Shown here: positions 35,296-50,838 of the stretch, in pieces | Layout of the letters: every line of letters begins with the position of its first letter | Numbering within the stretch: the stretch's first letter is position 1 | Source: Celeribacter sp. HF31 | GTDB lineage: Bacteria > Pseudomonadota > Alphaproteobacteria > Rhodobacterales > Rhodobacteraceae | NCBI RefSeq assembly: GCF_011806455.1 | Contig: NZ_JAATOT010000002.1 | Location: forward strand, 62,001-126,000 | Direction: 5' to 3' | Length of the DNA stretch: 64,000 nucleotides | Program-made: the position numbers and the translations under genes | The notes under the pieces: generated by a model | What the model was told of the DNA's origin: nothing | Seen by the model: only the letters and a program-made list of their open reading frames with translations | Databases searched by the model: none

Positions 35296-35335
35296 TTTCT
35301 GTCACCGCCCCTTGAAACCGCGCCTCCCATCGCTT

Positions 35336-35690
35336 ACATGTGGGATGTCGCTTCGGCGACTATGGACATAAACGCGCTCGTAATAAGCGGATCGGACCCG
35401 GGGGCGGTACCCGGCGTCTCCACCAAATACCCCTCTTCGGTTCTCGTTTGGGACCGGCAAGAGATTGGATCATGGGGACGAAATAGGATCGACGGACGTC
35501 TAAAGGGGTTTTGCTTTGTCTCGGTGAGATACCACCGTTATCGGTTCACTTAAGCTAGTTGCAAACGACAACAAAGCTCCGATGGCTCTCGCAGCGTAAG
35601 CTGTGCGAAATATCGAAATCTAAGCCCTTTCGCCTAGCAGCGTAAGGCGGGGCCCGCAGGAGCCTGGCAACAGAATCCTGCACCTTCCCC
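35336..35690 (+). ncRNA. ssrA: Two-piece (permuted) tmRNA
   Basis: The ssrA gene is circularly permuted, as in alphaproteobacteria: the acceptor part comes first and ends CGTCTCC-A-CCA at 35415-35425. A spacer to be removed follows, and the coding part begins GGGGACG at 35474. GGGGACG and CGTCTCC form the 7-bp acceptor stem, with a G-U at the third pair, the alanine identity element. GGATCGACGG near the start of the coding part is conserved in tmRNAs. The tag frame at 35560-35598 reads ANDNKAPMALAA then TAA. Pseudoknot-like stems follow, the last GCAGGA/TCCTGC. The outer ends are approximate. It rescues stalled ribosomes and marks the products for ClpXP. Confidence 0.93.
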
Positions 35691-49376: not shown

Positions 49377-49629
49377 TCGTTGAGCGCCAATTGCTCAGAC
49401 ATGCGCGGTGGGGCTTTGGCACCACCGCAGATCGCCCGCAAAATTTGACCAAGCGCTCAATTTAACCAAATCAACAGATTGACAGCGCGCGATCTCTACC
49501 ACATATGGGCATCAAACGCACCTTCCGATCAAAAACGGTCGTTTTTACAGAAAATTCACCGGCGCCGTAGGGCGACCTTAACCTTTTTGATGTCTTGTCC
49601 CGGCAAAAGCTGTGGCGAGAAATCAAGAG

Positions 49630-50142
49630 ATGACCGACATGACTGAGCGCAGATTCGACATCGCGGGCCTCACCGCCCCCTCGGCCCTCTCGTCCCTGAC
49701 CATCCGCGCGATGGAACTGGCGGATTTGCCCTGCCTGCTTGAGATGATCCGCGACCTGCAAACGGTGACCAAGGATCAATTGCAGCTCGATGCGGATGCT
49801 CTGATCGACCTGCTCTACGCCTCCTCGCCCTGGGCCCGCATCATGGTTGCCGAACGGAATGGCGTCCTGATCGGGTACACCGCCCTTGTCGGCGGGCTGC
49901 AACTGAGCCCCGTCGATCGCGCCATGCAGATGCATCATCTCTATGTCCGACCCGACTATCGCGGTGAAGGCGTTGCGCGCGCCTTGACCCAGGCGGCCCG
50001 GGCCGTGGCGCATCACCTCGGCTGCGGCACGTTGAGTGTCGGCATCCTGAGCACTTCGGAGACCGCAAAAGCCGCCTATCGCGCTGTCGGTTTCGAACGC
50101 CCTTCCCTGCGGTCTCCGCATTACGAAATGGCGCTCGCCTGA
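49630..50142 (+). CDS. GNAT-family N-acetyltransferase (tandem copy 1)
   Basis: A GNAT protein of about 170 aa; the start is ambiguous (GTG 49612, ATG 49630 or ATG 49639). The core is SLTIRAMELADLPCLLEMIRDL, WARIMVAERNGVLIGYTALV, and the acetyl-CoA loop VRPDYRGEGVARALTQ (R/QxxGxG/A type) followed by ILSTSETAKAAYRAVGF. It is clearly a paralogue of the gene at 50335 (shared LTIR start, ALIDL, VAER-G, LVGG, HHLY). Substrate unknown; the family acetylates amines in small molecules or proteins. Confidence 0.88.
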   Translation: MTDMTERRFDIAGLTAPSALSSLTIRAMELADLPCLLEMIRDLQTVTKDQLQLDADALIDLLYASSPWARIMVAERNGVLIGYTALVGGLQLSPVDRAMQMHHLYVRPDYRGEGVARALTQAARAVAHHLGCGTLSVGILSTSETAKAAYRAVGFERPSLRSPHYEMALA

Positions 50143-50151
50143 GCTTTGCGC

Positions 50152-50180
50152 TTGACAGCTTCCCCCGCGCCGCGCAGATT
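50152..50180 (+). promoter_or_regulatory. Promoter of the FYW leader / GNAT copy 2 transcript
   Basis: TTGACA (50152-50157), a 17-base spacer and CAGATT (50175-50180). The -35 box is a perfect sigma-70 match; the -10 is weak. Transcription would start at about 50187-50188, that is on the ATG of the leader ORF, making the leader mRNA leaderless like trpL of Sinorhizobium meliloti. Confidence 0.55.
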
Positions 50181-50187
50181 GGGTCTC

Positions 50188-50238
50188 ATGACACAGACCG
50201 CTTCCATGACTGTTTTTTATTGGACCGAGCTTACATAA
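50188..50238 (+). CDS. Putative 16-aa leader peptide with Phe-Tyr-Trp run
   Basis: ATG at 50188 opens a 16-codon frame, MTQTASMTVFYWTELT, closed by TAA at 50236-50238. The consecutive codons TTT-TAT-TGG (50215-50223) specify Phe, Tyr and Trp, one of each aromatic amino acid. No ribosome-binding site precedes it, but the predicted start of transcription falls on the ATG. Position before alternative hairpins and a terminator gives it the form of an attenuation peptide. Not known to me from any published family. Confidence 0.55.
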   Translation: MTQTASMTVFYWTELT

Positions 50239-50292
50239 GCGCGGCCTTTCAGCTTGGAACATTGAACAGCCGCCACAAGAGGCGGCTTTTTT
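50229..50292 (+). terminator. Attenuator: antiterminator and intrinsic terminator before GNAT copy 2
   Basis: The terminator is AGCCGCC (50268-50274), loop ACAAGA, GGCGGCT (50281-50287), then a run of T to 50292. The competing arm GCGGC (50241-50245) can pair with GCCGC (50269-50273) to form an antiterminator. A small hairpin GCTTA-CA-TAAGC (50229-50240) covers the leader stop codon. A ribosome stalled on the FYW codons would leave GCGGC free, one at the stop codon would cover it. Confidence 0.6.
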
Positions 50293-50334
50293 CATGTCAA
50301 ACTTCCCCTCCTGTGGCGCCCCCAGGAGAAAAAC

Positions 50335-50838
50335 ATGACCTTACTGACAAAGATTTCCGCCCCGAAGGACAGCCTCACGATCCGACGCGCGCGTTGGGGC
50401 GACAAGGATGCGCTGTTGCAGATGATCCACGCGCTGGCGCATCATCATGGCGATGAGCCGGAGCTGGACCTGTCCGGCCTCATTGATCTGATGCGCGCCG
50501 ATCTGCCGTGGTTGCGGCTTTTGGTGGCGGAGCGCGGCGGCGCGCTGGTCGGCTATGCCGGATTGGTCGGTGGTGTGCGCCTGCACCACGGGCAGAAAAC
50601 GCTGGACCTACATCATCTTTACATCGCCAAAGAGGCGCGCGGCCAAGGCATCGGGCGCGCCCTGATTGCCGAGGCGAAAGCCACCGCCATTGCCATGGGA
50701 TGCCACATCCTGACGGTTGGCACGCAGGACCACAATCTGGTCGCACAGGCCACCTATCGTGCTTGCGGCTTTGAACCGCAAACCCTCTCCGGCAAACGGT
50801 TTCAGATGATTTTGAAAGCGGATGAAGTCGCGCCTTAG
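50335..50838 (+). CDS. GNAT-family N-acetyltransferase (tandem copy 2, attenuator-controlled)
   Basis: A 167-aa GNAT acetyltransferase behind AGGAG with six bases spacing. The fold shows SLTIRRARWGDKDALLQMIHALA, LRLLVAERGGALVGYAGLVGG, the acetyl-CoA loop IAKEARGQGIGRALIAEA, and LVAQATYRACGFEP. It is a paralogue of the preceding gene. Unlike copy 1, it sits directly after an intrinsic terminator and an aromatic leader ORF, so its expression should depend on aromatic aminoacyl-tRNA levels. A substrate related to aromatic amino acids is a guess from that context. It is convergent with rnd, with stops almost touching. Confidence 0.9.
   Translation: MTLLTKISAPKDSLTIRRARWGDKDALLQMIHALAHHHGDEPELDLSGLIDLMRADLPWLRLLVAERGGALVGYAGLVGGVRLHHGQKTLDLHHLYIAKEARGQGIGRALIAEAKATAIAMGCHILTVGTQDHNLVAQATYRACGFEPQTLSGKRFQMILKADEVAP

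Follow-up and report, generated by a model that had tools for sequence, protein, structure and literature searches.

Attenuation through the reading of amino-acid codons is a textbook mode of control for biosynthetic and tRNA-synthetase genes. In S. meliloti the trpL/rnTrpL/peTrpL system is, according to the available text of its descriptions (PMC7298713, PMC10117765), a ribosome-mediated attenuator with a leaderless short ORF. The leader reported here resembles it in having a leaderless ORF (the start being putative in our case) and an antiterminator/terminator switch, as well as in its occurrence in Alphaproteobacteria. It differs in that the S. meliloti leader carries Trp codons and controls a biosynthetic gene, whereas here the codons are centred on Tyr, the downstream gene encodes a GNAT acetyltransferase, and a covarying hairpin around the Shine-Dalgarno sequence and a fifth element, E, are present. 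The uORFC-8-2 motif before cysS, a candidate ribosome-mediated attenuator of the Rhodobacterales, shares the order, an aminoacyl-tRNA signal and an intrinsic terminator with our leader, but has Cys codons, cysS as its target and two prominent stems, with a rare third one lacking covariation; the words "GNAT" and "acetyltransferase" are absent from the main text of that report in its available form (PMC8632094). A leader ORF in Caulobacter precedes trpS, an aromatic aminoacyl-tRNA synthetase gene, like two of the leaders described below (L149, L151) and not a GNAT gene (PMC4117421, available part).

The locus lies in a 64,000-nucleotide stretch of the Celeribacter sp. HF31 genome, the whole of which is called the window here; its features are listed in Table 1. 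An earlier note on this DNA had proposed an attenuator that reads all three aromatic amino acids and controls the GNAT gene. On recheck, the promoter, the 16-codon ORF with its F-Y-W codons, both hairpins, the antiterminator arm and the GNAT gene were all found where that note had placed them. The "strong" ribosome-binding site is present as a Shine-Dalgarno sequence, yet it is enclosed in a conserved hairpin that had been overlooked. The ATG of the leader ORF lies 8 nt beyond the last base of the -10 element, which makes a transcript start at or next to it plausible; judged by this promoter-to-ATG spacing the ORF is probably leaderless. Moreover, element E is complementary to C plus the terminator loop (50271-50282) at 11 of 12 positions in the window.

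Table 1. Features of the leader, the GNAT gene and the neighbouring paralogue, in window coordinates
Feature	Position	Strand	Remarks
Sigma-70-type promoter, TTGACA-N17-CAGATT	50152-50180	+	TTGACA 50152-50157, CAGATT 50175-50180
Leader ORF, 16 codons, MTQTASMTVFYWTELT	50188-50238	+	Putative leaderless; stop TAA 50236-50238
Tyr codon TAT (codon 11)	50218-50220	+	The one codon present in every GNAT leader found
Phe and Trp codons flanking the Tyr codon	50215-50217, 50221-50223	+	F-Y-W = 50215-50223
Element A, hairpin 1 5' arm (anti-antiterminator)	50222-50232	+	Expected under the ribosome stalled at Tyr
Element B, GCGCGGCC	50239-50246	+	Partner of A or C; includes antiterminator arm GCGGC 50241-50245
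Element C (GCCGCC), terminator 5' arm	50269-50274	+	Possible partners B, D, E
Element D (GGCGGC) and U6, terminator 3' arm	50281-50292	+	
Terminator GCCGCC-ACAAGA-GGCGGC	50269-50286	+	Followed by T6 50287-50292
Element E, anti-Shine-Dalgarno arm	50307-50318	+	CTCCTG 50308-50313; complementary to C plus terminator loop
Element F, GNAT Shine-Dalgarno CAGGAG	50323-50328	+	Paired with E in predicted fold
GNAT acetyltransferase, 167 aa	50335-50838	+	ATG 50335; resembles SSAT and thialysine acetyltransferases
Upstream GNAT paralogue	49630-50142	+	42-43% identical to downstream GNAT
Decayed leader of upstream paralogue	49479-49629	+	Promoter and terminator remnant, without the conserved Tyr ORF

We propose that the region acts as a ribosome-mediated transcription attenuator measuring charged Tyr-tRNA, and we put the probability of this reading, attenuator and Tyr signal taken jointly, at slightly above 80%, an estimate that does not extend to the role of C:E pairing or to the enzyme's substrate. 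According to our hypothesis transcription would start at or next to the ATG of the short leader ORF. With ample Tyr-tRNA the ribosome would reach the stop codon and cover element B, C would pair with D, and transcription would stop before the GNAT gene. When Tyr-tRNA is scarce, the ribosome would stall at the Tyr codon and cover A, B would pair with C, the terminator would not form in time, and GNAT would be transcribed. In the read-through mRNA the E:F hairpin would hold the Shine-Dalgarno sequence and restrain GNAT translation, and pairing of C and its loop with E may link antitermination to the opening of this site. Perhaps the attenuator also reads Phe- or Trp-tRNA in some clades.

The anatomy of the leader is conserved in the genus and beyond, in numerous alphaproteobacteria of sea and soil. 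The leader region was matched by blastn in 10 of the 19 other genomes of the genus, and a covariance model built from these ten and the window (11 leaders) found it in 18 of 20 genomes, the window's included, in all 18 cases directly upstream of a GNAT homologue. Excluded were the blastn matches L012-L017, covering about 30 bases over the terminator only. A protein-profile scan of the genome collection returned 282 stretches encoding GNAT relatives, of which 80 were examined; 13 of the 80 (L047-L059) come again from the window's genus and supersede L003-L008, L010, L011 and L042-L046, drawn from the same genomes. A candidate upstream ORF (TTGAC, an ATG 24-45 nt downstream and 12-22 codons, Tyr not being required) precedes the gene in 63 of the 80 relatives. 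The covariance model added two (L084, L089), bringing the count to 65 of 80, and in the other 15 a leader was found by neither the scan nor the model. Of the 65 leaders this model matched 61, with 0-9 nt between match and ATG, and 47 of these matches reached an E-value of 0.1 or better. The relatives with a leader are mostly Rhodobacterales (Celeribacter, Pacificibacter, Sulfitobacter, Tropicimonas, Nioella, Phaeobacter and others) and Rhizobiales (Rhizobium, Neorhizobium, Ciceribacter, Shinella, Agrobacterium and others). One Sphingobium (L083) carries an FYW leader (MIERVLTSSFYWVRLT) in which no clear terminator is recognisable; it perhaps exerts control at translation only.

For closer comparison 74 leaders were extracted (75 minus L089, which is the same locus as L027), representing 61 distinct peptides. 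Most of the 74 were taken by a rule under which the peptide had to contain Tyr and TTGAC had to lie 33-45 nt upstream. The distance from TTGAC to the ATG is 34-37 nt in 71 of them (33-45 nt having been the selection rule for most), and the ORF has 14-17 codons in 72. An intrinsic terminator stands between ORF and gene in 72 of the 74; L062 and L083 lack a convincing one, and the folding set consists of the remaining 72.

Two kinds of evidence bear on the proposed switch. The first is covariation. Across 53 leaders aligned by the model, compensatory changes affect 11 of the 15 pairs in hairpin 1 and the terminator, with 81 compensatory cells (shuffles gave 21.9, slid controls no more than 26) and with 92.7% of cells pairing, in an alignment that was fitted to the structure and so favours this result. 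The second is folding. Before D is made, pairing of B with C averaged 0.90 with the ribosome at Tyr (0.5 or above in all 72 leaders), 0.53 without a ribosome (0.5 or above in 37 of 72) and 0.16 when the ribosome sat on the stop codon (below 0.5 in 69 of 72). Folding thereby predicts a classical switch, with the antiterminator favoured at the Tyr stall and suppressed at the stop. The 37 leaders in which B:C reaches 0.5 without a ribosome include most of those from Rhizobiales, and since the antiterminator is predicted to form ribosome-free in these 37, their off state would depend on a ribosome sitting at the stop. After completion of D, C:D prevails on average at equilibrium even in the stalled state (0.80), and consequently the switch must be kinetic. 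Known attenuators are also held to switch kinetically. Taken singly, the pairings stand out less from shuffles: A:B is stronger than 95% of shuffles in 41/72 leaders (9/21 with one locus per terminator-loop class) and B:C in 26/72 (4/21), while the control pairings A:E and B:E, which have no expected role, exceed that level in 2/72 and 0/72. Anti-antiterminator, antiterminator and terminator thus appear mutually exclusive, as expected of a trp-type attenuator.

The hairpin around the Shine-Dalgarno sequence adds complexity to this picture. Pairing of E with F has a mean energy of -14.0 kcal/mol, compared with -9.3 in shuffles and -9.8 when partners were swapped between loop classes, and beats 95% of shuffles in 41/72 leaders (8/21 by loop class). 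Because the Shine-Dalgarno sequence sits in this conserved hairpin, translation of GNAT from the read-through mRNA is probably restrained too. For E with C and the terminator loop the mean is -19.3, against -11.6 in shuffles and -14.8 with swapped partners; the 95% level is passed in 60/72 leaders (14/21 by loop class) and not in the other 12, and in L026, L027, L054, L057, L058 and L059 most swapped loop-class partners pair more strongly than the leader's own C and E. The two pairings share at least three positions of E in 63/72 leaders. In 12 further leaders, those before tyrS and trpS included, C:E exceeded 95% of shuffles in 11 and E:F in 8; these are 12 of 13 newly found leaders judged genuine (L145 was omitted), they had been inspected before the test, and one duplicates an earlier locus. 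As an opener of the Shine-Dalgarno sequence at equilibrium C:E found no support, the mean opening being 0.29 with the D arm blocked versus 0.27 (72 leaders), which tells against the link suggested above; blocking D opened the site by more than 0.2 in 3/72 and closed it in 2. At the stage before the Shine-Dalgarno sequence is made, C:E formed at least four pairs in 40/72 leaders with D blocked and 41 with D free, a similarity that speaks against a clear switch at this point. Our suggestion is a kinetic one, namely that E, when caught by C during antitermination, would leave the Shine-Dalgarno sequence free.

Leaders of the same type also precede other genes. A class search covered 385 genomes and a family search 295, both with strict filters, so the tallies are lower bounds. 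Besides the window's genome, the class search matched at least 16 of 385 genomes, in which we judged by eye 11 matches to be chance terminators and 5 genuine, and the family search at least 10 of 295, all 10 of which looked genuine. A second match within the genome of the window (L143) seemed a chance one, and L144 and L145 duplicate L061 and L121. One leader with Y-F codons (MTEMMHITAVYFARLP, L127) precedes tyrS (TIGR00234, 357.9 bits against a cut-off of 113.8), and two leaders with W-W codons (..TWWLAS and ..NRWWQSW; L149, L151) precede trpS (TIGR00233, 227 and 226 bits against 176.75), all three in Alphaproteobacteria other than the window's host. The match between these codons and the synthetase points to Tyr-tRNA as the quantity that is read before the GNAT genes. 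In the window's own genus tyrS has no such leader (0/20, scanned for TTGAC, ATG and 8-25 codons), and common control of GNAT and TyrRS is therefore not observed there.

Some targets were unexpected. A Tyr leader (MENTKIHINAYFTSSK) precedes a stand-alone S4-domain protein in L136 (about 1501-1943 of the reverse-complemented locus); weakly similar to the C-terminus of TyrRS, it is possibly an RNA-binding regulator. In L146 the leader MIKTRATSTTYYRS precedes a SnoaL-like gene. W-Y-F leaders stand before GNATs of different sequence groups in L130, L131 and L141, of which the first two fail to match the window GNATs at E 0.01 and the third matches them weakly (5e-5); given these differences, GNAT targets may have arisen more than once.

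Tyr is the codon on which the GNAT leaders agree. It is present in 63 of 63 upstream ORFs from the scan of the 80 relatives, which made no demand for it, and the 61 distinct peptides contain Tyr in 61 (required for most), Phe in 55, Trp in 36 and all three in 35. The ORF continues for five codons after Tyr in 60/72 leaders, four in 9 and six in 3, which gives the regulatory codon the set position ahead of the hairpins that a trp-type attenuator calls for. The first 11 leaders of the genus all carry Y11 and W12, preceded at position 10 by Phe in 10 leaders and by Tyr in 1, and the other 7 of the 18 genus loci have YYR, YYA or YYF, so that FYW is not a genus-wide core. We therefore discarded FYW as the conserved core; it is limited to some clades, and Tyr alone is common to all the leaders found. 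The Tyr codon of the leaders is TAT in 70 of 72, compared with 101 TAT and 185 TAC in the GNAT genes; wobble reading, queuosine or ancestry may account for the excess. With Tyr universal, Phe and Trp variable, and matching codons in the tyrS and trpS leaders, Tyr-tRNA(Tyr) is the most likely common signal, to which Phe or Trp may be added in some clades.

The main alternative is the one put forward in the earlier note, that a shortage of Phe-, Tyr- or Trp-tRNA would each induce GNAT; blocking the shikimate pathway would be one such situation. The three codons are adjacent in the window and occur together in the 35 peptides just mentioned, Rhizobiales leaders commonly read Y-F-W-A-Y, and the footprint of a ribosome stalled at the TGG of the window would be expected to reach over element A as well. 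However, Trp is missing from 25 of the 61 peptides and Phe from 6, 10 have neither near Tyr, and the Y-F of the tyrS leader implies that Phe beside Tyr need not signal Phe. This wider sensor is thus possible, though on the unlikely side. That note had also named orthologues without the FYW ORF or the alternative pairing as evidence against its proposal: aligned orthologues do depart from FYW, but they retain the ORF, the Tyr codon and the pairing, and their hairpins covary. The attenuator before GNAT, with its ORF, promoter spacing, exclusive hairpins, terminator and target, is supported by comparison, and sensing of all three aromatic amino acids is not, given the 35/61 peptides, the 7/18 genus loci, and the Y-F and W-W codons before tyrS and trpS.

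YjhQ of E. coli is itself a GNAT. Its operon, topAI-yjhQP, is preceded by toiL, which in the available part of its description (PMC12121999) is like our leader a uORF that frees a sequestered Shine-Dalgarno sequence by ribosome stalling, but responds to antibiotics that target the ribosome and works through translation and Rho termination, with neither an intrinsic terminator switch nor a leaderless start mentioned there. It could be hypothesized that a drug or the nascent peptide stalls the ribosome, as in toiL and the erm leaders, and that the GNAT inactivates the drug. The nature of the target and the hairpin that sequesters the Shine-Dalgarno sequence would fit, as would a weak similarity of the window GNAT to aminoglycoside and streptothricin acetyltransferase profiles, far under their cut-offs. 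Against this, the peptide varies widely between clades apart from Tyr and its aromatic neighbors, tyrS and trpS have leaders with matching codons, and a trp-type terminator switch is conserved; we regard such a drug sensor as improbable. Less probable still is that the terminated RNA or peptide acts in trans, with the position before GNAT being secondary. Termination would be expected to yield an RNA of about 105 nt that begins with the ORF, as for rnTrpL (PMC7298713 and PMC10117765, available text), but the leader accompanies GNAT over two orders, and the alternative pairing and the Shine-Dalgarno hairpin imply action in cis; the two roles are not mutually exclusive. Finally, that the ORF arose by chance and the upstream GNAT gene simply ends in a common intergenic terminator, as the location of the region between two same-strand genes might suggest, we regard as refuted by conservation and covariation over 53 leaders, by the presence of the leader in 18/20 genus genomes and 63/80 relatives, and by three loci (L005, L009, L011) that have it with only one GNAT within 1.5 kb.

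Our preferred reading, a Tyr-tRNA attenuator, raises the matter of what the enzyme does. The window protein belongs to the GNAT superfamily (Pfam Acetyltransf_1 above cut-off and a GNAT fold, model pLDDT 86.8), and its nearest named relative is from C. naphthalenivorans (92% identical). It falls below the cut-off of all 17 NCBIfam families that it matched (RimI, ArsN1, AAC(6') and others; best 41.6 of 86.4 bits), and among the E-values obtained for the other 20 members of set A2 the best was 1.2e-14. In fold and profile its neighbors (2bei, 8a9n, 2fe7) are acetyltransferases of polyamines and thialysine, along with some uncharacterised GNATs, with 2bei as the best profile match and among the best, closely tied fold matches. 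The likeness to SSAT2/thialysine and diamine/polyamine acetyltransferases goes with about 18-32% identity in the top matches, many of them tied and with other GNATs among them, and the substrate is not transferable; a substrate call was left undecided by profiles and fold alike. In a mechanical ORF list of 17 of the 80 named loci no constant operon partner of GNAT was seen. Regulation points further: we infer that the enzyme presumably acetylates a small amine that accumulates when Tyr-tRNA is short, for example a tyrosine mimic or an inhibitor of TyrRS, which would give it a detoxifying role.

The history of the leader was read from a tree of 86 GNAT proteins, 72 with a leader and 14 without. 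L074, L077 and L080 were omitted, their translation from the match start being too short, and L089 replaces L027. Presence of the leader requires 5 changes on this tree, compared with 13.2 in shuffles (none of 500 as low), and the starred branches force 3. Nine of the leaderless rows, mostly Paracoccaceae, cluster together (support 88/90), and the upstream paralogue of the window falls, on a long branch, inside a leader-bearing set of five Celeribacter rows (100/89); it seems to have lost its leader. Our reading, which depends on where the root lies, is that the leader may be old and have been lost several times, once in this paralogue. The decayed leader keeps its TTGACA, and 49479-50142 offers a natural comparison of unattenuated with attenuated expression.

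As to novelty, the earlier note had called a GNAT-controlling attenuator for all three aromatic amino acids undescribed. The literature searched, which covered few subscription journals, contained no account of attenuation ahead of a GNAT gene in Alphaproteobacteria, and none of the Rfam families reached its cut-off on the leaders scanned. At gathering score no Rfam leader family was found on the window, ten GNAT-leader loci or seven further loci, and all Rfam families searched to E 10 on 50143-50400 gave nothing above cut-off. Phe_leader (RF01859), likewise an attenuator with aromatic codons, scores 16.2 bits on the window against a gathering score of 55. Elsewhere in the window, 35308-35684 encodes a permuted alphaproteobacterial tmRNA (RF01849, 302.8 bits). 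What is new here is a probable attenuator of the trp type whose target lies outside biosynthesis, together with an additional complementarity that is conserved.

In conclusion, the original observation of the leader is right and wider in scope than a single window, and a Tyr-centred reading replaces that of three amino acids. A GNAT domain (MccE) is known to disarm microcin C. A more ambitious view would have an ancient alphaproteobacterial circuit in which low Tyr-tRNA calls up a GNAT to neutralise a mimic of tyrosine or an inhibitor of TyrRS, through a six-element leader in which the anti-Shine-Dalgarno arm would have the 5' arm and loop of the terminator as its alternative partner and one stalled ribosome would control both transcription and translation, in a design common to the tyrS and trpS leaders; this larger picture is tentative and unlikely to hold in all its parts. 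The complementarity between terminator and anti-Shine-Dalgarno arm, found also in the tyrS and trpS leaders examined, raises the question of how one leader might couple termination with translation. Moreover, a conserved attenuator before a lone acetyltransferase indicates that the enzyme matters when Tyr-tRNA is short. The range of substrates to look for becomes smaller in this way, and the regulation suggests a defence against tyrosine mimics or TyrRS inhibitors.
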